This document shows positions 5,268 to 26,004 of a stretch of DNA of 38,546 nucleotides, in pieces (within the stretch, counting starts at the first letter, position 1; each line of letters begins with the position of its first letter). Position numbers and translations under genes: made by a program. Origin of the DNA: Anaerolinea sp. (GTDB taxonomy: Bacteria > Chloroflexota > Anaerolineae > SpSt-313); contig DYEI01000162.1 in the NCBI GenBank assembly GCA_020725765.1, positions 1-38,546 of the forward strand. Direction: 5' to 3'. The notes beneath the pieces are model-generated. The model saw only the letters and a list, made by a program, of their open reading frames with translations, searched no databases and had not been told where the DNA came from.

Positions 5268-5341
5268 CGGGCCCGATATCCACAGGGCCGGCGCCTCGGG
5301 TCATGACGCGCGGCACTACATAAAGGCGGGTCCCGCTTTCC

Positions 5342-5370
5342 TTGCCCCTCACACCGGTTCCTGCTATAAT
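5342..5370 (+). promoter_or_regulatory. Extended -10 sigma-70-type promoter of the GT4/GT-C operon
   Basis: TTGCCC (5342-5347, 4 of 6) and a perfect TATAAT (5365-5370) are separated by 17 bp. A TG at 5362-5363 makes an extended -10. The predicted start of transcription is near 5377, about 50 nt before the glycosyltransferase ATG. The hexamer ACCGGT lies in the spacer at 5353-5358. Confidence 0.75.
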
Positions 5371-5426
5371 GGCGCCCGCTGTCTCCGGAGCCAATGGATG
5401 ATCATCAAGGAGCGGGGACTCTCTTC

Positions 5427-6563
5427 ATGCGAGTATTGATGGTCTTGACATATTACTACCCCCACTGGACTGGCCTGACGACGCATCCCCAGTGGGTGGC
5501 TGAGAGCCTCGTGCAGCGAGGCCATCAGGTGACGGTCCTCACCTCTCGTTTTCGGCCCGACCTGGCACTGCGGGACCGGCACAATGGCGTCGACATCGTT
5601 CGCCTGCCGACCATCGGGAGGCTGAGCCGCGGGGTGCTGATGCCCTCGTTTCCCGCGGCTTTGCTGCGGCTTGCCCGTGAGCACGACGTGGTCCAGATCA
5701 ACACGCCCATGCTCGAGGCACCTCTCGTCGTGTGGCTCGCCGAGCGAGTGGGGCGCAGGACGCTCGTTACCCACCACGGCGACCTGGTGATGCCGGCGGG
5801 CCTGTTCAACCAGTTCGTCGAGTTTACAGTCACGGCACTGATGCGTCAGGCCCTGCGCTGGGCGCCGGCCATCTCGAGCTATAGCCGGGACTATGCGGAG
5901 AACTCGAGCTTTCTGCGCCCATTCCTGGAAAAGATCACCTGTATCTATCCGCCCATCCAGATCCCTGAACCCGATCCGGAGCAGGCGCTCGCCTGGCGGC
6001 GCGAGCTCGGGCTGGAGGGCCGGCGCCTCGTGGGCTTTGCCGGCCGCTGGGTGGAGGAGAAGGGGTTCGACTTTTTGCTGCAGGCGATCCCGCGTGTGGT
6101 TGAGCAGATCCCCGGGACCCGCTTTGTCTTTGCGGGTGAGAAGAACGTAGTCTACGAGCAGTTCTACGCGCGCTGCCGGCACCTGGTCGAGCAAAACGAG
6201 GAGCACCTGGTGTTCCTGGGGTTGCTGACCGACCGGAAGAAGCTCGCGAGTTTCTACCATATGTGCGACGTCTTTGCACTGCCGAGCCGCACCGACTGTT
6301 TTGCGATGGTGCAGGTCGAGGCGATGCTCTGCGGCACGCCCGTGGTGGCCACGGACATCCCGGGTGCGCGCGTGGCGGTGCGCGAGACTGGTATGGGGCT
6401 CCTGGTGCGACCGCAGGATCCCGAGGCCCTGGCTGAGGGCCTGCTCGAGGTGCTCAAGGCACCGGAGCGATACCGGCGGACGCCGGAGGAGATCCGGCGG
6501 GTTTTCAGCCTGGAGCGCACGATCACGCAGTACGAGCAACTGCTACAGCGCCTGGCGGTCTAG
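5427..6563 (+). CDS. GT4-family glycosyltransferase (GT-B fold)
   Basis: Cytosolic or membrane-associated glycosyltransferase of 378 residues. An N-terminal GT4 acceptor domain starts MRVLMVLTYYYPHWTG, with the usual Gly-rich loop and ESLVQRGHQVTVLT. The C-terminal donor domain has GFAGRWVEEKGFDFLL and a nucleotide-sugar signature around residues 290-312 (CFAMVQVEAMLCGTPVVATD). The first acidic residue of the family's E-x7-E motif is Asp290 here, with Glu298 retained. It probably adds a sugar to a lipid carrier on the cytosolic side, supplying substrate for the GT-C enzymes encoded downstream. ATG 5427 is preferred over ATG 5394 because it begins the first beta strand and has AAGGAG-CGGGG upstream, although the spacing is long. 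It is first in the operon behind the 5342 promoter. Confidence 0.88.
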   Translation: MRVLMVLTYYYPHWTGLTTHPQWVAESLVQRGHQVTVLTSRFRPDLALRDRHNGVDIVRLPTIGRLSRGVLMPSFPAALLRLAREHDVVQINTPMLEAPLVVWLAERVGRRTLVTHHGDLVMPAGLFNQFVEFTVTALMRQALRWAPAISSYSRDYAENSSFLRPFLEKITCIYPPIQIPEPDPEQALAWRRELGLEGRRLVGFAGRWVEEKGFDFLLQAIPRVVEQIPGTRFVFAGEKNVVYEQFYARCRHLVEQNEEHLVFLGLLTDRKKLASFYHMCDVFALPSRTDCFAMVQVEAMLCGTPVVATDIPGARVAVRETGMGLLVRPQDPEALAEGLLEVLKAPERYRRTPEEIRRVFSLERTITQYEQLLQRLAV

Positions 6564-6574
6564 GCGGGGGGTCC

Positions 6575-7429
6575 ATGATCAACGAGCGGGCGCTGGAGCG
6601 GCTGCTGCGCAACGAGTCGGACGTGGCCTACAAGCGGCGCGTCCGCACGATGCTCGAGTTTCTCGAGCCCGCGCCCGGCGACCGCATCCTCGATTGTGGG
6701 TGCGGGATGGGCTTCTACCTGAAGTGCCTGACCTCGCTCAGCAAAGCGACCTGTACCGGGCTGGACTATGACGCGCAGGCACTGGCCTTTGCCCGGGAGG
6801 CGCTCGCTGGCCGCAACGTGCCGATCGTGCGGGGCGATGCGCTCCACCTGCCCTATGCAGATGCGTCGTTTGACAAGATCGTCTGCAGCGAGGTGCTCGA
6901 GCACCTGCCCGATGACCGCAGAGGGCTGGCCGAGCTGCGGCGCGTGCTGCGGCCGGGCGGCCTCCTGTGTGTGACGGTTCCCCACCGCGACTACTCCTTC
7001 TGGTACGACCCGATCAACCGCATGGCCGAGGGCCTCTTCGGCCGACCTATACGTGAGGGTCCGTTCGCGGGGATCTGGGCCAATCACCACCGGCTGTACC
7101 GTCCAGATGAGCTGGTGGCACGGCTGGAGGAAGCGGGGTTCGAGGTCGTGGAGGTGCGCAACCTGACACACTACTGCTTTCCGGGCACGCAGACCATCGT
7201 CTACACCTTTGGTAAGGGGGCGATAGAACGCGGGCTGCTACCGGAGGCGATCCTGCGCAGCACGCACCGCTTCCGCAGCGAAGACAACGCCGGGAGCCCG
7301 CTGAACCCCATCAACTGGGTCCTGGCGCTTTTCCGGGCCTTCGACCGGCTCAACACATTGGACCGCTCTGAGAAGCGGACCTATGCCAACGTCGCCGTCA
7401 AAGCTCGCAGGGGGTCTGATGCGAGATGA
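6575..7429 (+). CDS. Class I SAM-dependent methyltransferase
   Basis: Soluble methyltransferase of 284 residues with a Rossmann fold. Motif I is LDCGCGMGFYL (39-49). An acidic strand-2 end follows in GLDYDAQAL, then a DALHLPYADASFDKIVCSEV motif II/III region and a PGG turn (LRPGGLLCVTVP). These features place it with ubiquinone/menaquinone- or sugar-type small-molecule methyltransferases (Methyltransf_11-like). The last 80 residues beyond the core match nothing I recognise. It starts 11 nt after the GT4 gene behind TAGGCGGGGGG, and its stop overlaps the next start as ATGA. A role methylating a glycan, or its lipid carrier, is inferred only from its place in the glycosyltransferase operon. Confidence 0.85.
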   Translation: MINERALERLLRNESDVAYKRRVRTMLEFLEPAPGDRILDCGCGMGFYLKCLTSLSKATCTGLDYDAQALAFAREALAGRNVPIVRGDALHLPYADASFDKIVCSEVLEHLPDDRRGLAELRRVLRPGGLLCVTVPHRDYSFWYDPINRMAEGLFGRPIREGPFAGIWANHHRLYRPDELVARLEEAGFEVVEVRNLTHYCFPGTQTIVYTFGKGAIERGLLPEAILRSTHRFRSEDNAGSPLNPINWVLALFRAFDRLNTLDRSEKRTYANVAVKARRGSDAR

Positions 7430-9420
7430 GCCCTCGCAGCCGTCGTCTGGCCACGGTCTCTCTGAGCGCGGCCCTGGCGTTGGCTCTGGTTGGGCAATTC
7501 TACTTTGAGAGGCGTCGTGAGTATCCCTGGGACGCCGTGATTCTGTATGCCCTGGGCTCGGTGCTCTTCCTGACGGCGGTGCGGCTGGCGGGACTGGGCC
7601 CTGATGCGCCAGGTGCTGCGGCCGCCGCGTGGCAGGCCGCCCTCGGATGGGTGCGCCGACATCCCTGGAGGGTTGGCGCGGCGACGGTAAGCGCCGTGGC
7701 CGTCCTCGCCGTTGGGAGCCGCGCTGCGCAGCCCCTTACGGCCGCAGAGGGCTGCTTCCTGCTGGGGCTTTGGGCGGGGGCGGTGCTTCTCTTCCTGGGA
7801 GCGACGGTGAGCTGGCCGCGGGCCGCGGCCTGGTGGCGGAGCCTGCCCGCGCGGCTCAGGGCGAGCTGGTGGGAGGTGTCGGCCGTTGCTCTGGTGACGG
7901 CGGTCGCCGCTGCCGCTCGGCTGGTGGCCCTGGACCGCATCCCCTACATACTGGGTGGCGACGAGGCCTCGATGGGTCGCGAGGCGCTGAACGTCCTCCG
8001 CGGCCGGCTCACGAACCCCTTTGCAACCGGCTGGTTTTCGCACCCGACGCTCTTCTTCTACCTCCTCGCTGCCTCGCTGCGCTGGCCTGGCGGGTTGGTG
8101 AGCGGCCTCCGCCTGGTCCCGGCCCTGGCGGGGGTGCTGACGGTTCCGGCGCTGTACCTCCTCGTGCGGGAGCTGTTCGGACGCAGGGTAGCGCTCCTTG
8201 CGGCCGGATACCTTGCCTGCTACCACTATGCCATACACTACTCGCGCCTGGCGCTGAACAACAACCTGGATCCCCTCTTTGCTTCGCTAGGCTTCTATGC
8301 GCTGCTGATAGGGTTGCGCACGCGACGGCCGGTAGCCTTTGCGCTGGCGGGGGTGCTCCTGGGCGTTGGGCAGTACTTTTACATGGGTGCGCGGGTGGTG
8401 GTCATCATTGCCGTGGCCTTTGTAGCGTGGGCGGCGTGGTCGGAGGACGGCTCCTGGCGGGCCTGGCGGGGGAACCTCCTCCTGACGGTCGGTGGTTTTC
8501 TGCTTGCCGGCTGGCCGCTCTTGCTCTTTTTCGCGCGGCACCCGCGGGATTTCGCGGCGCGCATCAACCAGCTCGGCATTTTCCAGTCCGGATGGCTGGT
8601 CAGCGAGGCAGCCAAGCTGCAGAGGAGTCAGCTCAGCCTTCTGTGGCAGCAGTTCACCAGAACGGTGCTGGCCTTCCATTACTACCCGGATCCGGCACCC
8701 TTCTATCGCCCCGGTGTGCCCTTACTGGACTCGCTCAGTGCAGTGCTCTTCACCTTTGGGCTGGTGTATACCATGGCAAGCTTGCGACAGCGCGGGAGCA
8801 AGCTCATGGCGCTGTGGTTCTGGGGGGTGCTCCTCTTTGGCGGAGTGCTCATGGAGAACCCGCCGAGCTCGCAACGGCTGCTGCTGAGCGTCGTGCCCGT
8901 CAGCACCTTTGTGGCGCTGGGGCTATCGGTGCTGGTGGGGGCGGGTGAGCGCATAGGGCGGTGGCGCAGCTTCTCCGTGTGGCTGCTCCTTGGCCTGGCC
9001 GTGGTCGTCCTCGGACAGCGGAGCCTGCGCTTCTACTTCGGTCCCTACACAAGCGCGCGGGTGTACCCCGGCCTGAACACCGAGGTCGGCCATCGGATGG
9101 GGCTCTATCTGCGGGAGCTCGGGCCTGAGTACCACTACTTCTTCTTCGGGCCGCCGCGGATGTATGCCGGCTTCCCTTCGCTGCTGTACCTTGCGCCGGA
9201 CGTAGAGGGCGAGGACGTCTACGAGCTGCCGGGCGACCCCGGCGACTGGGAGCGGCCTGGAAAACGCCCGGTCTTCCTGTTCCTCCCCGAGCGGCTCGGC
9301 GAGCTTGATGCTGTCAGATCCTGGTTTCCCGGTGGCGAGGTCAAAGAGTTCCGGCAGGACTCGGGAGCACTCCTCTTCGTGACCTATGTGCCGGGCGAGG
9401 TGACGGGTGGGACGCAATAG
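7426..9420 (+). CDS. GT39-like GT-C membrane glycosyltransferase
   Basis: Integral membrane protein of 664 residues. An N-terminal extension of about 140 residues holds several extra membrane helices before the GT39-like core. The core's first external loop has LGGDEASMGREA with Asp179-Glu180, then a GWFSHPTLFFYLL segment that resembles the PMT/ArnT loop (small residues, His-Pro, aromatic membrane entry). Roughly a dozen hydrophobic segments follow to about residue 535, and the C-terminal 130 residues are soluble (YHYFFFGPPRMYAG). The ATG overlaps the methyltransferase stop by 4 nt (ATGA), indicating translational coupling. Donor and acceptor are unknown. It shares domain layout with the next gene (long N-terminal membrane extension, active loop near residue 180), so the two are probably tandem paralogues. 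Confidence 0.8.
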   Translation: MSPRSRRLATVSLSAALALALVGQFYFERRREYPWDAVILYALGSVLFLTAVRLAGLGPDAPGAAAAAWQAALGWVRRHPWRVGAATVSAVAVLAVGSRAAQPLTAAEGCFLLGLWAGAVLLFLGATVSWPRAAAWWRSLPARLRASWWEVSAVALVTAVAAAARLVALDRIPYILGGDEASMGREALNVLRGRLTNPFATGWFSHPTLFFYLLAASLRWPGGLVSGLRLVPALAGVLTVPALYLLVRELFGRRVALLAAGYLACYHYAIHYSRLALNNNLDPLFASLGFYALLIGLRTRRPVAFALAGVLLGVGQYFYMGARVVVIIAVAFVAWAAWSEDGSWRAWRGNLLLTVGGFLLAGWPLLLFFARHPRDFAARINQLGIFQSGWLVSEAAKLQRSQLSLLWQQFTRTVLAFHYYPDPAPFYRPGVPLLDSLSAVLFTFGLVYTMASLRQRGSKLMALWFWGVLLFGGVLMENPPSSQRLLLSVVPVSTFVALGLSVLVGAGERIGRWRSFSVWLLLGLAVVVLGQRSLRFYFGPYTSARVYPGLNTEVGHRMGLYLRELGPEYHYFFFGPPRMYAGFPSLLYLAPDVEGEDVYELPGDPGDWERPGKRPVFLFLPERLGELDAVRSWFPGGEVKEFRQDSGALLFVTYVPGEVTGGTQ

Positions 9421-11434
9421 CGAGGGTCTGGCCCCATCGCACCTGATTGCGCAGCGTCTCGGGGCGCTGGGGCTTGTTGCCGTGGGCGCGGTGGGCCTCG
9501 GTGCTGCCTACCTCGGCCAGAGGGCCCTGGACCGGCCGCCGGTGAGGCCGGGGGAGTGGGGGCTGCTCCTGGGCGGTGCAGCGACCTTTGCGTTGTGCTG
9601 CTCGGGCTATGCACTGGAGCGGGCGCGCGAACAGCCGGAGCAGACCGTCGCGCAGCCGCGGCTCTGGCTCCTGGGGCTCGCGCTGGTTCTTGCCGCGGCC
9701 GCGTTTCCCGGCTTTGCGGGGAACCGGTTCCGCCTCTGGTCGGCGGTGCTCTGGATTGCCGCGCTTGCCTCACTATACGCCGCCTTTGCGCGGCGAGGTG
9801 CCGGAGCGGGCGAGGGCGGCGCGCGCAGGGAGGCAGGCGGGGTGCGCCTCTCCTGGGAGACGCTGCTGCTGGCGGCTATCATCCTGGTAGGGGCCTTCCT
9901 GCGGCTCCACCGGCTCGATGCGATCCCGGCGGAGATGGGCACCGACATGCCGCTCAAGTACGAGAACGCACGCGAGATCATGCAGGGGCAACTCATGATC
10001 TTCTGCCCTCGCTATCCTGGCAGGGAAGCGCTGCTGTTCTATCTGATTGCCCTGTATGGCAGGCTCTTTGGGCTGGGGTTCTTTGCGATCAAGGTCACGA
10101 CGGCGCTGCTGGGGGTGGCGACCATACCGGCGCTCTACCTGCTGGCCCGGGAGCTCTATGGCCGCCATGTGGCGGTGGTCGCGGCTGCGCTGCTGGCTCT
10201 GAGCAGGTGGCACGTCACCCTCAGCCGGTCGGGCTACCGGGCGATCCTGGTGCCGCTGTTTCTGGCCCTTCTGATGCTTGGGCTGGTGCGGGCCCTGCGG
10301 CGAGGCTCAGGGGCGGGGTTCGTGGCCACTGGGCTTGTGCTGGGGCTGGGGATGTACACGTACAACTCGTTCCTGGTGGTGCCGCCAACGCTCGTTCTGG
10401 TGCTGGCGGTGGAGATGGCGCGCTCCGGGTGGGGTTGGCTGCGTCGCTACGGGTGGGGGCTGGTTGGGCTAGTGTTGGCGGCCGTGCTGGTCTTCCTGCC
10501 GCTGGGGCACTATATTCTGGAGCAGCCGGAGGTCTATGCCTTCCGCGTGGCGACGCGGCTGACGGATGCCGAAGTGCCGCTGCCTGCGGAGCCCTGGCGG
10601 GTCTTGCTGGGGAACCTCTGGCGGGCGGCAGGCATGTTCAACCTGCGGGGCGATATCGTCGCCTACACTAACGTGCCCTACAGGAGGCATCTCGGGGCGG
10701 TCAGTGGCGTGCTGTTTGCGGCCGGGCTGGGGTACAGCCTCCTGCGGTTCTGCCGTGGCCACAACACCGTGGTGCTGGCCTTTCTAGCTGCGATGATCTT
10801 TCCCACGGCGCTGGCGCTGGCCTTTCCCAATGAGGTCCCGAACGCCGGCCGGGCCTCGGGCGTCATCACTTCGACGTACCTGCTGGCCGCGCTGCCGCTC
10901 GTGGCTCTGTACCGGCGGATGGCGACCCTCCGTCCCGTCGGTTGGGGTCGCACGGGGCTTGGGGGCAGTGCTCCGGTGGCAGGATGGCTACGGGGCGCAG
11001 GCCTCCTCCCGGGTCTGGTGCTGGTTGGGCTCCTCGGCGCCGAGCTGCGAGAGACGTGGCAGGGATACTTTCAGGACTATGTGCGGCATTTGCCACGCGG
11101 CAACTATGCGATATCCTTAGAGATCGCCCGGGTGCTCGATGGCTTTGAGGAGGAGGGCGAGTCCTACGTCGTCGTGTGGCCCCACTGGTTCGATGGCAAC
11201 GCCCTGCGCGCGCAGCTCCGGGTCAAGTCCAAGTCGTGGGACTGGGAGCTGCCGAGGCTGGATCCGGAAGGGCCGCCGCTCTCCACTGTACAGGGGAAAG
11301 TGCTCTTTGTGGTGCATCCCGGCGACAGGGAAAGCCTGGAGGTTCTGCGGGAGTGTTTCCCGCGCGGGGTGGCCATCGGCCACCGCGACAACAACGGCGA
11401 GGTGGCCTTTGTGACGTTCTATGGAGAGAGATAG
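9407..11434 (+). CDS. GT39-like GT-C membrane glycosyltransferase, altered Asp-Glu motif
   Basis: Integral membrane protein of 675 residues with the same layout as its upstream neighbour: about 150 residues of extra N-terminal membrane segments, then the GT39-like core. The usual Asp-Glu of the first external loop reads Gly-Thr-Asp180-Met181 (EMGTDMPLKYENAREI), so only the Asp is kept. The loop continues with a PRYPGREALLFYLIAL segment. The C-terminus has a soluble region of about 130 residues (ARVLDGFEEEGESYVVVWP). The GTG at 9407 overlaps the previous gene by 14 nt, with a GAGG at 9397-9400 as ribosome binding site. It ends 4 nt before the chosen start of the giant gene. It may be a transferase with shifted specificity or reduced activity; the sequence cannot decide. 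Confidence 0.77.
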   Translation: MGRNSEGLAPSHLIAQRLGALGLVAVGAVGLGAAYLGQRALDRPPVRPGEWGLLLGGAATFALCCSGYALERAREQPEQTVAQPRLWLLGLALVLAAAAFPGFAGNRFRLWSAVLWIAALASLYAAFARRGAGAGEGGARREAGGVRLSWETLLLAAIILVGAFLRLHRLDAIPAEMGTDMPLKYENAREIMQGQLMIFCPRYPGREALLFYLIALYGRLFGLGFFAIKVTTALLGVATIPALYLLARELYGRHVAVVAAALLALSRWHVTLSRSGYRAILVPLFLALLMLGLVRALRRGSGAGFVATGLVLGLGMYTYNSFLVVPPTLVLVLAVEMARSGWGWLRRYGWGLVGLVLAAVLVFLPLGHYILEQPEVYAFRVATRLTDAEVPLPAEPWRVLLGNLWRAAGMFNLRGDIVAYTNVPYRRHLGAVSGVLFAAGLGYSLLRFCRGHNTVVLAFLAAMIFPTALALAFPNEVPNAGRASGVITSTYLLAALPLVALYRRMATLRPVGWGRTGLGGSAPVAGWLRGAGLLPGLVLVGLLGAELRETWQGYFQDYVRHLPRGNYAISLEIARVLDGFEEEGESYVVVWPHWFDGNALRAQLRVKSKSWDWELPRLDPEGPPLSTVQGKVLFVVHPGDRESLEVLRECFPRGVAIGHRDNNGEVAFVTFYGER

Positions 11435-11438
11435 TGCC

Positions 11439-14400
11439 ATGCAGGATTGCCTGGAGAGGCCCCAGGTCGAAAGCGGGGGGCAGGGCGTGCTCGCACGGCT
11501 GCGGGCGTATGTGGGCACCCAGCAGTTCGTCAGGCTGGCGCTCGTGGCCATCCTGCTCCTTGGGGCGTCGATGCGCCTCACGGGCGTCAACTGGGATGAA
11601 GGGACCCATCTGCACCCGGATGAGCGTTTCCTGACCGATGTCACGAGCCGGCTGGGTTGGCCAAAGAGTCTGGCCGAGTACTTTGACGAGGCGCGCTCGC
11701 CGCTGAACCCATACAACCGCGATGTGGGCATGTTCGTCTATGGGACGGCGCCCATCTTTCTGGTCAAGGGCCTCGGGTTGCTCCTGAACAAGAGCTCCTA
11801 CTGGGAGGTCCACCTGGTCGGACGGGTTGTATCGGCCGGCTATGACCTGCTGGTCATCGTTCTGGTGTTTCTCATCGGCCGGCGGCTGTATGGGCGGTGG
11901 ATCGGGCTCTTGGGCGCTTTCCTCATGGCGTGCACCGTTCTGAACATCCAGCACTCGCACTTTTACACCGTGGAGAACTATATCACGCTGATGGTGACGC
12001 TGGCGTTCCTCTTTGCAGTGCGCGTCATGCAGGGCGGTGGTTGGGGGGACTGGGCACTCCTGGGGGCGAGCTTTGGCCTCGCTGTGGCCGGCAAGATCAA
12101 TATGGCCATGTTCGCCCTTGTCATCGCGGCGGCGTGCCTGGTGCGGGCGTTGAGCGAGCCGCTGCCGGAGACCTGGAACGCCGGTGTGCGGGTGCTTTGG
12201 CGGCGGAATCTTGGACCGCTGTCGCTACTCATGCAGGTCAACGGGCGCGACGACCGGGCAGGCCGCGTCGTGGCCCTGCAGCGCGGCATCTTGCGTGCCG
12301 GGGCGGGGCTTGCGCTGACCCTGCTCATCGCACTCGTGGCCTTTCGCGTGGCTCAGCCCTACGCCTTCAGTGGCCCAAGCCCCTTCAGCCTGGAGCTTTC
12401 CCCGCGCTGGCTGGAGGACATGAGGCGGGCCGCGGCCATGATGAACGGCACAATCGACATGCCGCCGAGCCATCAGTGGACCGACCGCGAGCCGGTGTGG
12501 TATGCGCTGCGCAACATCGTGCTGTGGGGCATGGGGCTGCCTCTCGGGCTGGCGGCCTGGCTCGGCTGGGCGGTGGCGGGGGTCGAGCTCTGGCGGAGGC
12601 GCAAGGTCGAGCATCTGCTGCCCCTGGTGTGGGTGACCTTCCCATTCCTGTATCTGAGCATCCAGTTCGTCAAGTCGATCCGCTATTTCCTGCCCTTCTA
12701 CCCGGTGCTGGTGCTCCTTGGGGCATACTTCATCTTCTGGCTGTGGCGACAGGCGCGGCGCATTGCGGGGGCCGCGGGCCCGGCCTGGACGCGGATGCTC
12801 GCCCGCCGGGCGCCCGCGGGGGCGATGGTTGTGGCAGGTGTGATCGTGCTGGGCACCTTCCTGTATGCCGAGGCCTTTACCAACATCTACCGTCGGCCCC
12901 TCACCCGGGTCGCTGCCTCACGCTGGGTCTATGAGAACATTCCCCCGGGCGCCACGATCACCTTCGAGCACTGGGACGACCCCATCCCCCAGAACGTCGA
13001 CGGGCGGGACGCCGGCCGGTACTACAACATGCTGGGTACAGACCCCTACTGGGAGGACACGCCCGAAAAGCGGGACGCCCTCTACAGCTGGCTGGACCAG
13101 GCAGACTATATCGTCCTCTCCAGCAACCGGGTCTATGAATCGATCCCGCGCCTGCCTGAGCGCTTTCCGCTGACGACCGCCTACTACCGGTACCTTTTCT
13201 CGGGTGATCTCGGGTTCCGCATCCTGAGGGTGTTCACCTCGTACCCCAACCTCGGCCCCATCGAGCTTGTGGACGACCGGGCCGACGAGACGTTCACCGT
13301 CTACGATCACCCCAAGGTCATCATCTTTGAGAAGACGGCTGCCTACTCCAGCGCGCGGGTGCGGGAGCTCTTGGGCGACATCCCGGTCGACCGGGTGATC
13401 CGACTGAGCCCGGTCCAGACGATGCGTTCCCGGCACCTTCTCCTCCTGCGGCAGGCGGAGCTGGAGGCACAGCGTGCCGGTGGGACGTGGTCGGCGATGT
13501 TCAACCGGATGGACCTGGCCAATCGGCTGCCCGTGCTGGCGTGGCTGGCTGTGACCGAACTGCTGGGGTTGATTGCGCTGCCGATTGCCTATCACGCCTT
13601 CCCGCGCCTGCGGGACCGGGGGTTCATCTTCGCCAAGGGGCTGGGGATACTGCTCGTCTCGTACCTCGCGTGGCTGGCGGCGAGCTTGCACCTTCTCCCG
13701 TACACGAGGCTGGCCATCGTTGCTCAGGTGCTGCTGGTGCTCCTCGTGGCCCTCTGGCTGGCGAGGCGGCGGTGGAGTGAGATGTGGGCCTACCTGCGCC
13801 GGGAGTGGCGCATGCTGCTCCTTGAGGAGGGGCTCTACCTGGCGTTCTTTGGGGCCTTCCTCCTCGTCCGCATGGGGAACCCGGACCTCTGGCACCCGGC
13901 GAGGGGCGGCGAGAAGCCGATGGACCTGGCCTATCTGAATGCCATCATCAAGAGCACGTGGTTCCCGCCCTATGACCCCTGGTATGCTGGTGGCTACATC
14001 AACTATTACTACTTTGGGCACGTGCTGGTTGCGACCCTGATCAAGCTCTCGGGCATCGTTCCGACGACGGCGTACAACCTGGTGCTGCCGACGCTCTTCG
14101 CACTGACCGCCATGGGGGCCTACGCAGTAGTGGCCGGGCTCGTTGGACAGGCGGGAGGCGGCGGTGATGAACCGACCCGGACGTTGGACCGCGCGGCGCG
14201 GTTCGGCCTCTTTGGGGCGCTTCTTGTTACGGTGCTGGGGAACCTGGGGCAGGTGCGACTGCTGACGCAGGCCTTTCAGGCGGCGAGTCAGCTCGAGTTC
14301 CGCAGCACCCTGCCGGGCCTCGCCGGGCTGGTCAGGACGCTGGACGGGCTGTTGCGGGTGCTGGCCGGGCGGCCGCTGGGAACCAACCCGGACTGGTGGT

Positions 14401-17400
14401 TCTGGAACGCGAGCCGCGTGATGGGTGCCGGGGAGATCAACGAGTTCCCCTACTTCACCTTCCTCTACGCCGACTTGCATGCGCATCTCATCGCGCTCCC
14501 CTTTGGGCTGCTGGCTCTCGGCCTGACCGTGAGCCTGCTCAACCAGTGTGTGGGCGCAGCCCGGGCGGCAGCGCGCTCCCCTGAGGAACCGGCCGGACAG
14601 GGCTCGCCCGCTGATATGATGCTGACCAAGGCAGGGCCGACGGCGGCAGTGGGCTTGCCAGGACGTCTGAAGCAATGGGCAGCTACCGTGCAGTGGACCG
14701 AGTGGCTCGGGCTCACGCTGCTGGCGCTCGTCCTGGGCGAGCTGAGGGTGAACAACACCTGGGACTATCCGACGTACCTGCTTGTGGCGGCGGGCGGGAT
14801 GGTCATCGCCCGGATGCATGGGAGGCGGGGCCCCTGGTGGGCTGAGGTCTGGCCGGTGCTGAAGCGGCTCCTCTTCCTGGCGCTCGCCAGTACGGTGCTG
14901 TTTCAGCCCTTCCATGCCCGGTACGGCGCGGCGTATACGTCGGTGGAGCTATGGCGTGGCACGCGCACCCCGCTGGGTGACTATGTGGTGATCCACGGGG
15001 TCTTTCTCTTCATCCTGCTCATCTACGCGCTGAACCGCGCCTTTGGGTACCAGGCACGGGGGGCGTTGGCGCGGAGCGTGCGGCTGACCCTGGGTCAGCC
15101 GCTAAGGATCGGCCGCTACATGCGGCTGGCCGACCGTCTGGTGCAGCCGGGAGCGGCGTATCAGGTGGGATGGCTTGGGATCATGGCTCTCGCCGCATTC
15201 TCGGCGGCGTCGGTGATGGTGCACTGGTGGCTCGTGGGGCTGGCTCTGCCGCTGCTCGTCGTGGGGATGAGCCTGTCGCTGCGGCGGGACCTGCCTGCGG
15301 CGGAGCAATTCGCCGCGATGCTCTTCAGCCTTGGGCTTGTGCTGACCGCAGCGGTCGAGGTCGTGGTGCTGCGCGGCGATATCGGCCGAATGAACACCGT
15401 GTTCAAGCTCTACCTGCAGGTGTGGGTGCTGTGGGGGGTGGCAGCGGCCGTCGCGCTCTCAGCGCTCAGCAGGCGATGGGCAAGGTGGCGCCCGGCATGG
15501 CGGGAGTCCTGCCAGCTCGGCCTTGGGCTCCTCCTTCTCGGAGCAGCACTGTACCCCCTCACGGCGACTGGCGCCAAGATCAATGACCGGTTCGACAGGA
15601 GCCTGGGTCCGGGTCTCGATGGCACCGCCTACATGCAGACAGCCCAGTACTACGATCAGGACCGGCTGTTGGAGCTCCGCCACGACCTCGAGGCCATCCG
15701 CTGGCTGCAGGACAATGTGCGGGGGTCCCCGGTCATTCTCGAGGCTCAGACGCCGCTCTACCGGTGGGGGTCGCGCATCTCGATTTACACCGGTCTGCCG
15801 ACCGTCATCGGCTGGGACTGGCACCAGATGCAGCAGCGTGCGGTGGTGCCGGGCGAGGCGATTCTCTGGCGGCTGGATGACGTCCGTCGCATGTACGACA
15901 CGATCGACGGGGATGAGCTCATCCGGCTCCTCAGGCTCTACGACGTGTCGTACGTCTATGTCGGCGAGCTGGAGCAGGCGTACTACAGCCCGGAGGGTCT
16001 CGCCAAGTTTGAGCGGCTGGCGGGCAGCCTGTTCGACGTCGTGTACCGGCGGGGCCCGGTCACCATCTATCAGGTGCGGCGGGAGCAGCTTGGAGGGCTC
16101 GCCACGCGCCCTTTTCTGCTGCCGCAAGCCGGGGGGAGCGGCAAGGCGCTCCTGCTCTCCGAGCCGGTTGATCAGTTGCCCGTCGTTGCGGACCGTGGCT
16201 GGAACCCCCTGGCCAACGCCGGGCCGGCTGCGGCTGTGCTCATCTGGTGGCTTGCCGTCTGCCTGCTGGGCTGGGCGGCGTGGCCTCTCCTCATGGGTGT
16301 GTGCCGGGGCCTGCCGGATCGCGGGTATCTCCTGGCCAAGGGGGCTGGCTGGCTGATTGTGGGGTACCTGCTGTGGCTGGGCGCCTCGACCCGGGCCCTG
16401 GCCAACCGGGTGCCGTACGCGTACGCAATCCTTGGGCTTCTCGTGGTGGCGGGAGTCTGGGTTGCGAGGCGGCAGCGTCGACGACTCGGCGCCCTGTGGC
16501 GCGCACGGCGATGGCTCCTTCTGCGGGAGGAGTTCCTCTTCTCCGGGGCGTTCCTGGCCCTCGTTCTCGTGCGCCTGGGTAACCCGGACCTCTGGCAGCC
16601 GTGGTTTGGCGGCGAGAAGATGATGGAGTTCGCGTATCTGAACGCCATCCTCAAGAGCGCCCACTTTCCGCCCTACGACCCCTACTTTGCGGGCGGCTAC
16701 ATCAACTACTACTACTATGGCCTGTACCTGGTCAACGTGCTGATCAAGCTCACCGGCATCGTGCCGGAGGTCGCCTTCAACCTGGCCGTGCCGACCTTTT
16801 TCGCGCTCACGGTCGCCATGGCCTTCTCGCTAGGCCATGCCCTCACCTGGCGGCGAAAGGGTCGGCAGTGGCTGTGGAGTGGCGTGGCTGCGGCCGTGGG
16901 GACGGCGCTACTGGCCAACCTCACGGTGCTGGCGCAGTGGGTGGGGGGGCTGGTCTGGCTGGGAGGCGGCCCGACGGAGGGGGCGCCGGGCCTCGAGGCG
17001 ATGCAGCCGCTGCTCGCGGGGCTTGCGCGATGGCTGAGCGGACAGGGGAACCTGCCAGCCTTCGACTACTGGTGGGAGGCCACGCGGATCATCCCCAACA
17101 CTATCAACGAGTTCCCCTTCTTCTCGTTTCTCTTTGCCGACCTGCACCCCCACATGATGGGCATGCCCTTCGCCCTGGGGCTGCTGGTGGCGCTCGTGGC
17201 GCTGGTGGCCCCCGGGGCTGGCTGTGGTCGGCTCGCCACGCAGCGCAGATCAGATCCCAAGGGCTGGGGCACCGTGGGACCCCTCCGAGGAAAGTGGCCG
17301 CTTGCACTGCTCGCCCTCATCGGCGGGGCGCTTGGCCCGCTGAACACCTGGGACTTGCCGACCTATCTGGGGTTGGCGGTGGTGGTGCTGGTGTGGGTGG

Positions 17401-18713
17401 GCATCGAGAGGCGCGTGGGGTGGCGGGCGTGCGTGCAGGCGATGGCCCTCGTGGCCCTGGCGGGCGCGCTGTACGCGCCCTTCTACGCCCACTATGCAGC
17501 CCCGTCAGCGTCGCCCCGGTTTGAGCCGGCGCAGACCCGTGCCCGGTACTTCCTGGTAGTGTGGGGGCTGTGGCTGGTGGCGGCGTATGGGTGGCTCGTG
17601 CCACGGTGGTGGCGCGGGAGGGATGGCGCAGGGCGAGTGTGGCGGCTGGCCTTGGGCCCGAAGGCGGCCCGGTCGCGGGCGCTGATGCGGGCACTGGGTG
17701 GCGGGGGGCTTGCGGCGGCGAGGCTCCATGTGGCACTTGCCGGCGCGGTGCTTGCGCTCACAACGCTGGCCCTCACGATCGGCGAGGCACCGATTGCACT
17801 GCTCATTGCGCCGGTGGTGCTTGGCCTTGCGCTGTGGCTGCGGCGGCGGGCTTCCATGGAAGAGCGGCTGGGTGGGCTGTTGATGGCGGCGGGGTGTGTG
17901 GTGCTGGCCGGCACCGAACTGGCCTTCCTGGCCGATTTCCTTCAGGGTGGCGAGTGGGAGCGCATGAACACCGTCTTCAAGTTCGGCATACAGGCCTGGC
18001 TGCTCCTCGCTGTGGGCCTGAGTGCCGGCCTGCCGGAGGTGCTCGACTGGGTGCGGCGGCGCGGATTCCTGCCCGGGGCCTGGGCGGTCGCCATGGTGGC
18101 GCTGGTGGCGATCAGCCTCGCCTATGTGCCGTTGGGGGTCGCGGCGCGGGTGCACGAGCGCTTTCCCGGCGGGCCTCCGCCGACGGGTACTCTGGACGGG
18201 CTGGCCTACATGCGGACCGGCGTGTACCGGTGGCCCGATGAGGAGCACCCGATCGTCCTGCGCCACGACTATGAGGCCATCGGGTGGCTCCTGGCCAACG
18301 TTCGTGGCACGCCGGTCATCGCTGAGGCTCCCCTCGGCTACTATCGCGAGGGCGGCATGCGCGTGTCCTCGTACACGGGGCTGCCGACGCTGGTCGGGGC
18401 GCACCAGTCGGAGCAGCGACCGGCCGAAGTGGTATCCGAGCGTGCCTCACAGGCCGATGCGCTCTACCGGATGGGTGACCCCGGGGCGACTCTGGCGCTG
18501 ATGCGGCAGCTCCGGGTGCAGTACGTATACTTTGGGCAGCTGGAGGAGGTGGTCTACGGGGCGGCCTCTCGGGCCAAGTTCGACGAGCTGGTGCACCGCG
18601 GCGAGTTGGAGGTGGCCTATGAGAATGAGGGGGTCAGAATCTATCGGGTTGTAGGCGTCGGGGCGAATCGGGCCAGGTGCTGCCCTTCGGGCTGCCCTGC
18701 GCCGACGGCGTGA
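11439..18713 (+). CDS. Giant tri-modular membrane protein: GT39-like module plus two DUF2298 (Chlor_Arch_YYY) modules
   Basis: Membrane protein of 2424 residues. Module 1 (about 1-665) is GT39-like, with LHPDER (Asp61-Glu62) and a soluble segment ending YDHPKVIIFEK. Modules 2 (about 665-1570) and 3 (about 1575-2424) are tandem DUF2298/YYY units. Each has NPDLW, a GGEK-x-M-acidic loop (Glu825 and Glu1726), PPYDP then AGGYINYYY (YYYFG 856-860; YYYYG 1757-1761), a conserved NEFP(Y/F)F region followed by LHAHL or LHPHM, RMNTVFK (from 1317 and 2175), and a soluble tail with RHD.EAI..L..NVRG and YTGLPT. From memory, TIGR03662 describes single-copy members and a two-copy class with an extra N-terminal region and TPR repeats; here no TPR is seen. 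Start ATG 11439 has GGAGAGAG at 11423-11430; ATG 11421 is an alternative. Function is unproven; extracytoplasmic glycosyl transfer is inferred. Confidence 0.88.
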   Translation: MQDCLERPQVESGGQGVLARLRAYVGTQQFVRLALVAILLLGASMRLTGVNWDEGTHLHPDERFLTDVTSRLGWPKSLAEYFDEARSPLNPYNRDVGMFVYGTAPIFLVKGLGLLLNKSSYWEVHLVGRVVSAGYDLLVIVLVFLIGRRLYGRWIGLLGAFLMACTVLNIQHSHFYTVENYITLMVTLAFLFAVRVMQGGGWGDWALLGASFGLAVAGKINMAMFALVIAAACLVRALSEPLPETWNAGVRVLWRRNLGPLSLLMQVNGRDDRAGRVVALQRGILRAGAGLALTLLIALVAFRVAQPYAFSGPSPFSLELSPRWLEDMRRAAAMMNGTIDMPPSHQWTDREPVWYALRNIVLWGMGLPLGLAAWLGWAVAGVELWRRRKVEHLLPLVWVTFPFLYLSIQFVKSIRYFLPFYPVLVLLGAYFIFWLWRQARRIAGAAGPAWTRMLARRAPAGAMVVAGVIVLGTFLYAEAFTNIYRRPLTRVAASRWVYENIPPGATITFEHWDDPIPQNVDGRDAGRYYNMLGTDPYWEDTPEKRDALYSWLDQADYIVLSSNRVYESIPRLPERFPLTTAYYRYLFSGDLGFRILRVFTSYPNLGPIELVDDRADETFTVYDHPKVIIFEKTAAYSSARVRELLGDIPVDRVIRLSPVQTMRSRHLLLLRQAELEAQRAGGTWSAMFNRMDLANRLPVLAWLAVTELLGLIALPIAYHAFPRLRDRGFIFAKGLGILLVSYLAWLAASLHLLPYTRLAIVAQVLLVLLVALWLARRRWSEMWAYLRREWRMLLLEEGLYLAFFGAFLLVRMGNPDLWHPARGGEKPMDLAYLNAIIKSTWFPPYDPWYAGGYINYYYFGHVLVATLIKLSGIVPTTAYNLVLPTLFALTAMGAYAVVAGLVGQAGGGGDEPTRTLDRAARFGLFGALLVTVLGNLGQVRLLTQAFQAASQLEFRSTLPGLAGLVRTLDGLLRVLAGRPLGTNPDWWFWNASRVMGAGEINEFPYFTFLYADLHAHLIALPFGLLALGLTVSLLNQCVGAARAAARSPEEPAGQGSPADMMLTKAGPTAAVGLPGRLKQWAATVQWTEWLGLTLLALVLGELRVNNTWDYPTYLLVAAGGMVIARMHGRRGPWWAEVWPVLKRLLFLALASTVLFQPFHARYGAAYTSVELWRGTRTPLGDYVVIHGVFLFILLIYALNRAFGYQARGALARSVRLTLGQPLRIGRYMRLADRLVQPGAAYQVGWLGIMALAAFSAASVMVHWWLVGLALPLLVVGMSLSLRRDLPAAEQFAAMLFSLGLVLTAAVEVVVLRGDIGRMNTVFKLYLQVWVLWGVAAAVALSALSRRWARWRPAWRESCQLGLGLLLLGAALYPLTATGAKINDRFDRSLGPGLDGTAYMQTAQYYDQDRLLELRHDLEAIRWLQDNVRGSPVILEAQTPLYRWGSRISIYTGLPTVIGWDWHQMQQRAVVPGEAILWRLDDVRRMYDTIDGDELIRLLRLYDVSYVYVGELEQAYYSPEGLAKFERLAGSLFDVVYRRGPVTIYQVRREQLGGLATRPFLLPQAGGSGKALLLSEPVDQLPVVADRGWNPLANAGPAAAVLIWWLAVCLLGWAAWPLLMGVCRGLPDRGYLLAKGAGWLIVGYLLWLGASTRALANRVPYAYAILGLLVVAGVWVARRQRRRLGALWRARRWLLLREEFLFSGAFLALVLVRLGNPDLWQPWFGGEKMMEFAYLNAILKSAHFPPYDPYFAGGYINYYYYGLYLVNVLIKLTGIVPEVAFNLAVPTFFALTVAMAFSLGHALTWRRKGRQWLWSGVAAAVGTALLANLTVLAQWVGGLVWLGGGPTEGAPGLEAMQPLLAGLARWLSGQGNLPAFDYWWEATRIIPNTINEFPFFSFLFADLHPHMMGMPFALGLLVALVALVAPGAGCGRLATQRRSDPKGWGTVGPLRGKWPLALLALIGGALGPLNTWDLPTYLGLAVVVLVWVGIERRVGWRACVQAMALVALAGALYAPFYAHYAAPSASPRFEPAQTRARYFLVVWGLWLVAAYGWLVPRWWRGRDGAGRVWRLALGPKAARSRALMRALGGGGLAAARLHVALAGAVLALTTLALTIGEAPIALLIAPVVLGLALWLRRRASMEERLGGLLMAAGCVVLAGTELAFLADFLQGGEWERMNTVFKFGIQAWLLLAVGLSAGLPEVLDWVRRRGFLPGAWAVAMVALVAISLAYVPLGVAARVHERFPGGPPPTGTLDGLAYMRTGVYRWPDEEHPIVLRHDYEAIGWLLANVRGTPVIAEAPLGYYREGGMRVSSYTGLPTLVGAHQSEQRPAEVVSERASQADALYRMGDPGATLALMRQLRVQYVYFGQLEEVVYGAASRAKFDELVHRGELEVAYENEGVRIYRVVGVGANRARCCPSGCPAPTA

Positions 18714-18889: not shown

Positions 18890-20656
18890 ATGCTCAAGCT
18901 GACAGACAAGAGCCAGGCCGGCCAGGGAAGGGCGCCCGACTGGCCGGCATTGACGCTTGAGAGCCTGATCTGCGCCGTGCTGCTCGGCAGCGCGGCCTTT
19001 ATTCGCTTCTATGCCTTGGGTCGCTGGCCGCTCCTTGAGTCGGAGGCGGGTCAGGCCCTGGCTGCCTGGCGGTTCCTGCATGGCGGCGCGCCATCACCGG
19101 CAGCCGTGCCTCTCTTGTTTGACTCTGCTCTTCTTGGCTTCTTCCTCTTTGGTGCAGGCGACGCAGCAGCGCGGCTATTGCCCGCGATCCTGGGTACGGC
19201 TCTGGTGCTCCTGCCCCTCGGACTCCGGCGGCGCCTCGGTACGTGGGGGGCCCTGGCCGCGACCTTGATGCTGGCCTTCTCGCCGACGCTTGTGTTCTAC
19301 TCGCGCACGCTGGCAGGAGCCGTCCCGGGGCTGGCCGGGCTGGGGGCGATTCTCCTCGCCATTGAGTACGCCGGGCGCGGGCGCGATAGGATGGCGAGGG
19401 TCCTGGGGATGGGGGGCCTGGCGGTTGCCCTGACGTCGACCCCCTGGGCCTATTCGGCACTCCTGGCGGGGCTGGTGCTCTATGGCCTCGGCGTGGTCGC
19501 CAGGCGCCGGGGCGACCGGTGGGCCGACTGGAGCGCGCTAACGGCAAGAACGGCCTCGCTCCTCGGCGAGCGCAAGCTCTGGCTGGGTGTTGGCCTCGTA
19601 GTGGTGTTGCTGTCGACTGCCCTGCTCATGCGCCTCGGCGGCTTGCAGGCGACGGCAGATCTTCTGGCCGTCTGGGCTGCGCGCCTGCTCCCTGGCTCTG
19701 GCGGGAGGGCCTTCGGTTACCCATTGGCCATCCTTCTCTTCTACGAGACGGGCACCCTTGCGCTGGGTGTGGCGGGCGTGATTATCGGGCTGCGGCGCCG
19801 AAGCCTGTGGGCGGCCTTTCTCGGCCTCTGGGGGGGGCTGGTGCTCGTGCAGGCGACCCTCTCGGGGGCGCAGGATGGCGAGCTGGTGGCGCAGGCGGTC
19901 GTTCCGCTGGCGCTGCTTGGCGGGGTGGCCGTCGAGGACCTGGTCGAACGCCTGCGCCCCGCGCAGCCGGTGTGGGTGGGCGGGTCGCTGGCTGTGCTGT
20001 CGGTCCTGGTGGGTTTCTGGTGGCTGCAACTCGCGTCCTTCTTCAACCCGGAGGCGGTGGCGCTGCTTGGCAGCTATCTGCAGGCGGTGTGGTTCCTCTG
20101 CCTGGCGACGCCGGTGGTCATTGCAGCGGCGGGTGCGGTGCTCTGGCGCTGGGTCGGCCGCTCGGAGACCCTCTGGGCGGTGGCCCTCCTGGGATTGGGT
20201 CTCGCAGGGTGCCTGCTCGTACGCAACAGCATCAGCCTCAATCACGTCTTTGCCCGCGACCCACGCGAGCCCCTGGTGGTCTCGCCGACTTCGGTTGACG
20301 TGCGGGATATGGTTGCCTTCCTTGAGACCTGGTCTGTGCGGACGGCACTGGACCAGCACGCCCTGAGTATCGCTGTGGGTCCGGACCTGGAGCCTCTGGT
20401 GCCCTGGTACCTGCGCGATTTCGGCGCGCTGCGCCTCTCTGCTGCGCCACAGGACATGGCGGCAGCCGATGCACTGGTGACGGCGGGCGTGGTCGAAGGG
20501 TCGAGCACGGTGGGCTACGCTTCGACGACCTACCGTCTGCGCAACGTCTGTGACGCACCGTTGGCGGACGCGTACAGTGCTTTTGGGTGGTGGCTGCTGC
20601 GAGTGGGAGGCGGGGCCGTGCGGCCCGAGACCTGCCGGCTCTGGGTCAGACCCTGA
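18890..20656 (+). CDS. GT-C-like polytopic membrane protein with non-canonical acidic loop
   Basis: Membrane protein of 588 residues. The N-terminus resembles the GT39/TIGR03663 pattern: one helix (FIRFYALGRWPLLESEAGQA), then a short external loop. The usual Asp-Glu pair is replaced by Ser51-Glu52. It then has GGAPSPAAVPLLFD, and a DAAARLLPAILGTALVLLPLGLR segment that aligns by eye with the second and third helices of the neighbouring TIGR03663-type protein (GRLSAALFSIGSVILILYLR). About ten further hydrophobic segments run to residue 450, and a soluble tail of about 140 residues ends the protein. ATG 18890 is the only sensible start; GGAG at 18871-18874 is rather far upstream. It stops 16 nt before the TIGR03663-type gene, so the two are probably made together and may form a complex, with this one a divergent or inactive partner. 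Confidence 0.7.
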   Translation: MLKLTDKSQAGQGRAPDWPALTLESLICAVLLGSAAFIRFYALGRWPLLESEAGQALAAWRFLHGGAPSPAAVPLLFDSALLGFFLFGAGDAAARLLPAILGTALVLLPLGLRRRLGTWGALAATLMLAFSPTLVFYSRTLAGAVPGLAGLGAILLAIEYAGRGRDRMARVLGMGGLAVALTSTPWAYSALLAGLVLYGLGVVARRRGDRWADWSALTARTASLLGERKLWLGVGLVVVLLSTALLMRLGGLQATADLLAVWAARLLPGSGGRAFGYPLAILLFYETGTLALGVAGVIIGLRRRSLWAAFLGLWGGLVLVQATLSGAQDGELVAQAVVPLALLGGVAVEDLVERLRPAQPVWVGGSLAVLSVLVGFWWLQLASFFNPEAVALLGSYLQAVWFLCLATPVVIAAAGAVLWRWVGRSETLWAVALLGLGLAGCLLVRNSISLNHVFARDPREPLVVSPTSVDVRDMVAFLETWSVRTALDQHALSIAVGPDLEPLVPWYLRDFGALRLSAAPQDMAAADALVTAGVVEGSSTVGYASTTYRLRNVCDAPLADAYSAFGWWLLRVGGGAVRPETCRLWVRP

Positions 20657-20672
20657 AGGAGACAGGTTCGGC

Positions 20673-23600
20673 ATGCAAGACGTCGCTCCCGAGTCGCGGA
20701 AAGACTCGTTCCTGAGGCGGCCCATCTCGACCTGGCTGCGTCTCGACGGTTGGATGCTGGTCGCAGCGCTCATCGTGCTGGCGGCCGTTGTGACGCGGCT
20801 CTGGGACCTGGGGGCGCGCTCCTACAACCATGACGAATCGATCCACGCCTGGGAATCGTGGAAGCTGTATACCGGGCAGGGCTATATTCACAACCCGATC
20901 TACCATGGCCCTTTCCTGTACCATGTCACGGCCTTTATCTACTTCCTGTTCGGGGATAGCGACTACACCGGGCGCCTGTCGGCGGCGCTCTTTAGCATCG
21001 GGAGCGTCATCCTCATCCTGTACCTCCGGCCATGGCTGGGGAGGAAAGGGAGCCTGGTGGCAGCGGCGCTTGCTGTGATCTCCCCCGCTCTGCTCTACTA
21101 CGGCCGCTTTATCCGGCACGACGTCTACTCGGTGTTCTTCACCCTGCTCATGCTCCTCGGAATTCTCAACTATCTCGAGAAGCGCGAGGACCGGTATCTC
21201 TACCTGACCGTGCTGGGGCAGGCGCTTTACTTCTCGAACATGGAGACGGCGTTCATCCAGACGTTCGTCTTCTGGACCTTCCTTGCGGTGCTGTTCCTGG
21301 CGCGGTGGCTGCCGAATCGTTCGCGCTCGTGGCGCGAGTTTCCCGAGTTCGACTTGCTGATCGTGATGGGGGCCCTGGTGCTGCCGCTGGCCTCTCCGCT
21401 GGGGATCAAGCTCGCGGGCACAGTGCTCAAGGATGCACGGTTTGACCCGATCGCCTATGAGAGCGTCGACAGCATCATCCGCTCGGCGATCATCTGGGGG
21501 CTGTGCTTCCTGGGGTCAATGGTGGTGGGGCTGTGGTGGGACCGGCGACGGTGGCTGGTCTCGGCGGGCCTGTACTATGCCATCTACATCGTGCTCTTTA
21601 CGACCTTTTTCACCAATGGGCGAGGCATTGCCACCGGGCAGGTTGGGTCATTGGGGTACTGGCTGTCTCAGCAGACGGTGCGGCGTGGCCAACAGCCGTG
21701 GTTCTACTACCTGATACTCCTGCCGATGTACGAGTACCTGCCACTCACTTTCGGGGTGCTGGGCGGGGCCTACTATCTGCTGCGGCGGCGCCCGGTGCCT
21801 GTGCTTGAGGGCGGATCGGAGAGGGCCGCGGAGCGAGTTGCCCCCTTTGTGCCTCTGGTCATGTTCTGGGCGGTGGGGAACCTCGCCATCTTTAGCTGGG
21901 GCGGCGAAAAGATGCCCTGGCTGCTCGTGCACCTGACGCTGCCTCTCGTCCTGCTCACCGCATGGTTCACGAATCGGCTGCTGGATGCCGATTGGCGGGA
22001 GCTGTGGCAGCGGGGCGCCGGGTGGGTGGCGTTGCTCCTGCCGCTGGCCGTGGTGGCCCTCGCCGGGACGCTCTCCTCGCGGCCTTTCACCGGCACGTCG
22101 ACCGCCAGCCTAAACGCGACCATGGCGTGGCTGGCGGCGTTCGCCCTGCTCCTGATTGTGGGCTACCCCCTGACCCAGTTCGTGGCACAGCTCGGCTGGC
22201 GAGACAGCGCGCGGGTTGCTCTGCTGGTGGCCTTTGTGGTGCTCGGGACCTTTACCGTGCACCACGCGTTCATGGCCGTGTACAAGTATGGGGACGTCGC
22301 GGTCGAGACTCTGACCTACGCCCAGGCCTCGCCCGACGAGCCGATGGTGATGCGCGAGCTCGAATCCATGTCCCGCCGGCTGACGAGCGAGAGGGACCTG
22401 AAGGTGGCCTACGACGATGAGTCGAGCTGGCCCTTTGTGTGGTACTTCCGCAACTGGCCGAACGCCCGGTACTTTGGCAAGGCACCCAGCGGTCCGCTCG
22501 ATGCGGCCGTGGTCATCGTGGGCCCGGGCAATGAGGCGGCGGTCAAGCCGTTCCTGGGCAATGCCTATTACCGGCGGCAGTACCGGCTCATCTGGTGGCC
22601 GCTGGAGGACTACAAGTCGCTCACCCCTCAAAAGCTCTGGCAGTACGTGGTAGACCCGGCGAAGCGCAAGAGCCTGTGGGACATCCTCATGTACCGCAAG
22701 TACGACACCCCGCTCGCGGGCTGGCCGCTGGTACACAACTTTATCATGTATGTGCGGAAAGACATCGCCGCCCAGGTCTGGGACTATGGCCCGGAGGTTG
22801 GGGCCGCCCAGTCCGAGCCGGTGGAAGATCCGTACATCGCCCGCTACCGGTCGCTCACGGCTGCGGCGAGCCTTGGCGGTCCGGCTGAGCTGGCGGATCC
22901 GAAGGGGATGGCCGTTGGTCCCGATGGGCGGCTGTTCGTCGCCGATGGCAAGGGGAGTCGCATCGCGGTCTACGCCAATGGGCAGCTTGTAGCCCAGTGG
23001 GGGAGCCAGGGGTCCGGGCCGGGGCAGTTCAACGAGCCCTGGGGGGTCGCGGTTGGGCCGGATGGGGCGGTCTATGTGGCCGATACCTGGAACCATCGCA
23101 TCCAAAAGCTGGATGGCGAGGGCCGCTTTGTGTCCTCGTGGGGCACCTTTGGCGATACGCAAGGGCGGGCCAGCGGCGAGTCAGACCTGTTCTACGGCCC
23201 TCGCGATGTGGCCGTCGACGCGGAGGGCAATGTCTGGGTGACGGACACAGGCAACAAGCGGGTGTGCAAGTTTGACCCCAATGGCCGGCCGCTTGCGCAG
23301 TATGGCGGCGCGGGCGTGGGCGAGGGGCAGTTCCTCGAGCCGGTTGGCATCGCCATCGATGGCGAGGGCAACATCTATATAGCAGACACGTGGAACCGAC
23401 GCATCCAGGTCTTTGACCGTAACTTTACATATCTGCGCCAGTGGTCGGTGATGGGGTGGGAGGGCCAGTCGGTGGTGAACAAGCCCTTCCTCGCCGTTGA
23501 CAGCGGCGGCAATGTCTACGCCACCGACCCGGAGGCGCACCGGGTGATCAAGTTCTCCAAGAGCGGGGAAGTGCTGGCCGTCTGGGGCAGGCGTGGCATG

Positions 23601-23711: not shown

Positions 23712-23722
23712 CGCGGATGCGC

Positions 23723-23742
23723 CTCCCCGCGCGTCGGGGGGA
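23723..23742. other. GC-rich hairpin between the NHL gene and sucC
   Basis: CTCCCC and GGGGAG (6 bp) enclose an eight-base loop, 11 nt after the NHL gene stop. No T-run follows, so it is not a classical terminator. No promoter is apparent in the remaining 75 nt before sucC. Confidence 0.4.
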
Positions 23743-23816
23743 GCGGGGGCCGATCCGGTGGCGGGGCGTGCGGCCTGCGGCGCCTGCCTGGTGTTGGTGC
23801 CACAAGGGGGTGGACG

Positions 23817-24959: not shown

Positions 24960-24973
24960 CCCTGGGGGTGGCA

Positions 24974-24989
24974 GCCGGCTGATGCCGGC
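24974..24989. other. Short hairpin in the sucC-sucD gap
   Basis: GCCGGC-TGAT-GCCGGC forms a 6-bp stem with a 4-base loop between sucC and sucD. There is no T-run. It may tune relative expression or stabilise the intergenic mRNA; chance is possible. Confidence 0.35.
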
Positions 24990-25016
24990 GGGGTGTCTTC
25001 TCGAGGGGGAGAGGCC

Positions 25017-25932: not shown

Positions 25933-26004
25933 GTCGCCTGGGCCTGCCAGGAGGGGCCGATCGGAGCGGTCTGGTGTCGAGACAGGGAGGTCGCGACAAC
26001 GGCG

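Follow-up and report, generated by a model that had tools for sequence, protein, structure and literature searches.

Enzymes of the GT-C fold provide the closest described counterparts of the protein discussed here. The GT39/PMT and GT83/ArnT families belong to GT-C class A and use lipid-phosphate-linked monosaccharides as donors, and to our knowledge the characterised GT-C enzymes carry one catalytic unit per chain. Another described group is the two-copy class of family TIGR03662, in which an N-terminal extension precedes two copies of the domain and TPR repeats. No functional study was found in the literature on DUF2298, TIGR03662 or multi-GT-C fusions, DUF2298 receiving only two passing mentions. 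Members of GT66 (STT3/AglB/PglB) and DPY19 (GT98) form a third point of comparison, with 13 TM helices in both OST and DPY19 (PMC6801728) and with D47 and D161-x-H163 as the metal ligands of AglB (PMC7226087). Finally, the Agl23 (TIGR03663) of Haloarcula, considered a putative hexose-P-dolichol flippase, moved lipid-linked oligosaccharide in liposomes (PMC11182771).

The window, that is, the whole stretch of 38,546 nucleotides analysed here, encodes a protein that resembles the two-copy class in having an N-terminal module followed by two domain copies and departs from it in lacking the C-terminal TPR; in addition, its N-terminal module is here identified as a GT-C unit. That a single chain holds three GT-C units facing outward, as the earlier note had proposed, is well supported by the predicted structures of the N-terminal module (M1) and of the first copy (YYY-B), and by homology for the second copy (YYY-C). 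The features of this protein, all on the forward strand, are as follows.

11421-18713 (+): tri-modular ORF, in the order M1, YYY-B, YYY-C; 2430 aa from ATG 11421, 2424 aa from ATG 11439
11421-13490 (+): M1, predicted PMT_2/GT39-like GT-C unit, residues 1-690 (PF13231 E=3e-12; AlphaFold2; PDB matches; topology)
11595-11627 (+): first extracytoplasmic loop (EL1) of M1, D59-E60 ... H65-P-D67-E68-R69, predicted catalytic acids (conservation)
13473-16106 (+): YYY-B module, residues 685-1562 (TIGR03662/PF10060; AlphaFold2; PDB matches; topology)
13905-14012 (+): YYY-B EL1 signature, GGEK (Glu831), PPYDP, GGYINYYY (Tyr862-864) (conservation of the Glu)
14439-14486 (+): YYY-B EL2 motif NEFP...D1018-L-H1020-A-H1022, predicted metal site (conservation; just before core TM4)
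16107-16178 (+): linker between YYY-B and YYY-C, the point at which a sister genus has the two modules as separate overlapping genes (GTGA)
16179-18704 (+): YYY-C module, residues 1587-2428 (36% identity to YYY-B; own clade in the YYY tree)
16608-16715 (+): YYY-C EL1 signature, GGEK (Glu1732), PPYDP, GGYINYYYY (landmark scan and conservation)
17106-17153 (+): YYY-C EL2 motif NEFP...D1907-L-H1909-P-H1911 (conservation)

The tri-modular reading frame and its relatives

The frame runs uninterrupted to the stop at 18713 from either ATG 11421 or ATG 11439, and both are candidate start codons. The first overlaps the end of the preceding gene (9407-11434) and is followed by an ERD peptide that is also present in the N-termini of relatives, and the second has a GGAGAG-like site upstream. 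Residue numbers refer to the 2430-aa form, starting at ATG 11421, unless stated. An assembly join between modules had been named in the earlier note among the findings that would refute its reading, and the window does belong, as contig C115, to a MAG of 570 contigs. Nevertheless, a join or a chance ORF is almost inconceivable, since an independent MAG of the same genus ("Anaerolineae bacterium HOT.MB2.62", JAIMBM010000102.1, locus L092) encodes the same ORF with 93% identity, and M1 plus two YYY modules lie in one reading frame in 17 Chloroflexota loci. The latter correspond to the window, L092-L095, L098, L099 and ten Chloroflexales-like or other Chloroflexota loci (L054-L059, L072-L075); contig ends truncate L059, L098 and L099, and L055 contains an N run.

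Both copies cover nearly the full TIGR03662 profile of NCBIfam (1079 bits against a cut-off of 300.25), and the search for DUF2298 (Pfam PF10060) that the earlier note had recommended gave 746 bits (against 27.8) in two stretches. TIGR03662 was found in 178 of the 251 Chloroflexota genomes sampled. The PHROGs phage families gave no match, and tblastn against plasmids returned only two short partial matches.

The window protein belongs to the known two-copy class as a form without TPR, for which Pfam gave no match at E<=1, as first noticed. The GT39-like extension that had been thought to set it apart is indeed present, as a PMT_2 domain, but it does not distinguish the protein, for M1 precedes the first YYY in all 41 M1-YYY fusions examined. 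These include the Chloroflexales-like relatives with C-terminal TPR tails (L056, L072), whose N-terminal region is homologous to M1. For this reason M1 is very probably the N-terminal region described for the two-copy class.

The tri-modular arrangement is old and common to the relatives, and all tri-modular ORFs have their modules in the order M1-B-C. The sister genus (locus L096) encodes M1-YYY-B in one gene and YYY-C in a second, the two overlapping at GTGA, where a 1-base assembly error could have produced the split. A fusion of M1 with a single YYY occurs in about 23 other loci, where a free YYY gene of a third type (S) usually comes next. In a tree of 88 YYY modules, the B modules stood apart from a 100%-supported group of C and S modules, in which the S types and the window-like C types each formed a supported clade. 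The Chloroflexales-like and Anaerolineae-like C modules did not fall in one clade, so the tri-modular fusion may reflect one ancient event or two. Furthermore, in six genomes of the class Anaerolineae the single M1-fused YYY grouped with C and not with B, which suggests either that a tri-modular ancestor lost B or that a separate fusion took place.

One relative deviates within the fusion itself: in L057 (6989-13990, - strand; 2333 aa) the first YYY is strongly degenerate, with a branch of 2.82 and the EL2 motif missing, and the second is intact. Judging by these sequence features, the first YYY of L057 may possibly be an inactive module.

Predicted folds, topology and conserved sites

The PMT_2 domain (Pfam PF13231) was recognised in M1 with 47.3 bits, against a gathering threshold of 26.1, at residues 115-235 of the 2424-aa form. 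Structure prediction, suggested earlier for each module as a check of the three-unit claim, was applied to M1 and YYY-B, and at significant scores linked M1 strongly and YYY-B more weakly to GT-C structures only. The alignments behind the models had 11 and 20 rows, and a single-protein scan of the genome contigs gave 8 loci. The AlphaFold2 model of M1 (pLDDT 79.9, pTM 0.83) had 34 Foldseek matches in the PDB at E<=0.001, all of them GT-C (best 2.9e-10) and including STT3, AglB, ArnT, ALG12, ALG9, Pmt4, PglB, DPY19 and AftD; a PDB sequence search with the M1 profile gave nothing significant. For the model of YYY-B (pLDDT 83.4, pTM 0.89) the best 12 matches were all GT-C, with 4 at E<=0.001. The best were DPY19 (1.1e-5), STT3 (9e-5), AftA, AglB, PglB and the AglB C-terminal domain, and unrelated transporters and channels appeared only from E>0.1. 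Because its TM-scores to GT-C structures were low (0.24-0.33), significance deriving from Foldseek E-values of 1e-5 to 1e-3, the evidence that YYY-B has a GT-C-like fold is good rather than conclusive. YYY-C would share this fold, given its 36% identity to YYY-B.

M1 thus resembles GT39/PMT and GT83/ArnT in its PMT_2 hit, in a model matching ArnT and Pmt4, and in the Asp-Glu of EL1, and differs from them in forming a subfamily of Chloroflexota, with the sequence WDxxxHLHPDER, that is joined to further GT-C units. The acidic loop reported for this module as Asp61-Glu62 is present as HPDER 65-69, the pair being D67-E68 in the 2430-aa numbering, and it was invariant in 40 of the 40 M1 modules having that region.

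For YYY the counterparts are GT66 and DPY19. The model of YYY-B matches these enzymes first, its core has 13 TM helices with an acid in EL1, the D-x-H of EL2 recalls the D161-x-H163 of AglB, and the C-terminal domain matches the globular domain of AglB. On the other hand, YYY has no detectable sequence relation to them, carries three extra N-terminal TM helices and shows D-x-H-x-H instead of D-x-D/E/H. No solved structure, STT3, AglB and PglB included, was matched in a PDB sequence search with the YYY profile, and a profile-profile comparison of YYY with M1 found no relation. The WWD sequon-binding motif of OST is absent from YYY-B, the C-terminal domain of which has YRWGS...YTGLPT. On both counts, sequence and WWD motif, YYY does not qualify for GT66, and an OST-like mode of working is possible. 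The C-terminal domain of YYY also occurs in other membrane proteins of about 550 aa that have no YYY core (L109, L110, L111); these were rejected as a guide to the identity of YYY, giving at best a sub-threshold DUF6541 match.

Chance cannot account for the internal repeat (36% identity, 326 bits, E=1e-102), and all the landmarks originally listed for it were recovered in the same order in YYY-B and YYY-C: GGEKPMD at 829 and GGEKMME at 1730, PPYDP at 849 and 1750, YINYYY at 859 and 1760, NEFP at 1007 and 1896, RMNTVFK at 1323 and 2181, RHD.EAI at 1420 and 2281, and YTGLPT at 1456 and 2318. Each copy has a YYYxG-type motif (YINYYYFG at 859, YINYYYYG at 1760). The spacing of 901 residues given for both GGEK and YYY is correct as a value; it counts as one fact and not as two, because 30 residues separate the two sites in either module. 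A structural rule based on this spacing was rejected, the values in relatives being 890, 926, 901, 907 and 960.

Topology was predicted from helices, hydropathy and positive-inside charge bias. M1 would cross the membrane with 11 TM helices (N in, C out) and YYY-B with 16, namely three extra helices and then the 13-TM core (N out, C out), each ending in an extracytoplasmic C-terminal domain. The whole chain would comprise about 11+16+16 TM helices, both YYY modules having the same 3 extra plus 13-TM plan. The prediction is consistent across modules, since both YYY modules begin on the outer side, where the C-terminal domain of the preceding module lies. The excess of K+R over D+E was +17 (B) and +33 (C) in the inside loops, and -4 (B) and -9 (C) in the outside loops. 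As this bias places the acidic EL1 loops outside, the loops of the three units are predicted to share the extracytoplasmic side, in line with the original claim.

The position of Glu831 is occupied by Glu in 87 of the 88 YYY modules and by Asp in the other, and the EL2 D-x-H-x-H is similarly conserved (D1018 in 86/88, H1020 in 87/88, H1022 in 86/88), with no difference among the B, C and S types. The window protein has kept the motifs in all its units, the C module having E1732, D1907, H1909 and H1911. Located in EL2 immediately before core TM4, the D-x-H-x-H would correspond, on topological grounds, to the metal-ligand positions of OST.

Possible functions of the fused units

The reading that we consider probable is that of three extracytoplasmic GT-C units, each a sugar transferase, fused as one complex. 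The protein would reside in the cytoplasmic membrane with the active-site loops of its three GT-C units on the extracytoplasmic face. M1 would act as a GT39/PMT-like unit through the Asp/Glu pair of EL1, and YYY-B and YYY-C as OST/DPY19-like units in which the EL1 Glu and the EL2 D-x-H-x-H are the probable binding site of a divalent metal and of the donor lipid-phosphate. The donor of each unit would most likely be polyprenyl-phosphate or -pyrophosphate carrying a sugar or short glycan, to be transferred to a growing surface glycan or glycoprotein as the presumed acceptor. Joint action as one complex, which may extend to the S-type YYY and the Agl23-like proteins of the operon, would best explain why the units were fused.

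A stricter model, in which the three units would successively extend one lipid-linked acceptor, always in the same order and each by a different residue, and fusion serves channelling, is a tentative possibility. It suits the separate clades of the B, C and S types, as expected of different specificities, the constant M1-B-C order of tri-modular ORFs and the retention of motifs in every unit of the window protein. Yet many Anaerolineae keep only M1 with one YYY, of B or C type; the full set in one chain is therefore dispensable, and a fused complex with no product channelling fits the data equally well. The broader proposition that DUF2298/YYY constitutes a metal-dependent, OST-like branch of GT-C, of which two units behind a PMT-like one would perform three consecutive transfers on the outside face, is doubtful. 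A chain of three GT-C units, spread as it is through Chloroflexota, a phylum with little-known cell surfaces, would be a natural system to test the coupling of outside-face glycosyl transfers, and DUF2298 would gain a testable enzyme class.

The overlapping B and C genes of the sister genus show the pattern expected of subunits, and in some lineages a free S-type YYY accompanies the one fused to M1. Both observations would agree with YYY-B and YYY-C being an obligate pair that makes one linkage, as in Pmt1/Pmt2, with M1 responsible for a separate step. That arrangement is unlikely, given that the split may be the 1-base error mentioned above and that lineages with one YYY per fusion exist. It is less likely still that only M1 is a transferase and that the YYY modules bind lipid-linked sugars mainly to flip or present them. 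Agl23, a GT-C-like neighbour, did move lipid-linked oligosaccharide across liposome membranes (PMC11182771), but the GT-C catalytic positions of all YYY types are occupied by acids and histidines that hardly vary, which argues for catalysis.

Gene neighbourhood

The genes flanking the tri-modular ORF in the window, all on the forward strand, are listed below.

1009-3180 (+): PMT_2 GT-C-type protein, 723 aa (PF13231 E=2e-9)
3216-5267 (+): free-standing M1 paralogue, 683 aa, with the same HPDER motif
5394-6563 (+): GT4-type glycosyltransferase, conserved neighbour (PF00534; order conserved)
6575-7429 (+): SAM methyltransferase, conserved neighbour (PF08241)
7426-9420 (+): PMT_2 GT-C-type protein, 664 aa, conserved neighbour
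9407-11434 (+): PMT_2 GT-C-type protein, 675 aa, its end overlapping ATG 11421
18890-20656 (+): Agl23-like protein, 588 aa (TIGR03663, 90.9 bits, below the cut-off of 126.25)
20550-23711 (+): Agl23 protein fused to a C-terminal NHL beta-propeller, 1053 aa (TIGR03663, 242 bits, above the cut-off)

An operon of the form GT4, methyltransferase, PMT_2, (PMT_2), [M1-B-C], S, Agl23 is conserved across Chloroflexota, the S-type YYY usually following the fusion. The window has the order GT4, methyltransferase, PMT_2, PMT_2, [M1-B-C], Agl23-like, Agl23-NHL, and the third YYY of its genome is of the S type, a free gene on another contig (G000:C226:4084-6438, L078). This context fits a multi-component glycosylation outside the membrane, of a kind that has been described (PMC8035078). 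Agl23 resembles the tri-modular protein in being its operon neighbour and in having a PMT_2 region too, and differs as a separate family tied to flippase activity in haloarchaea.

Together with the three units of the fusion, the four PMT_2 proteins upstream of it (1009-11434) bring the cluster to at least seven predicted GT-C units, followed by the two Agl23-like proteins. The genome has one GtrA-family protein. Two ORFs of 593 and 274 aa (23664-25445 and 25490-26314, both - strand) have no Pfam match and are weakly conserved at that position in the sister genus, and long Agl23-NHL versions recur in related loci.
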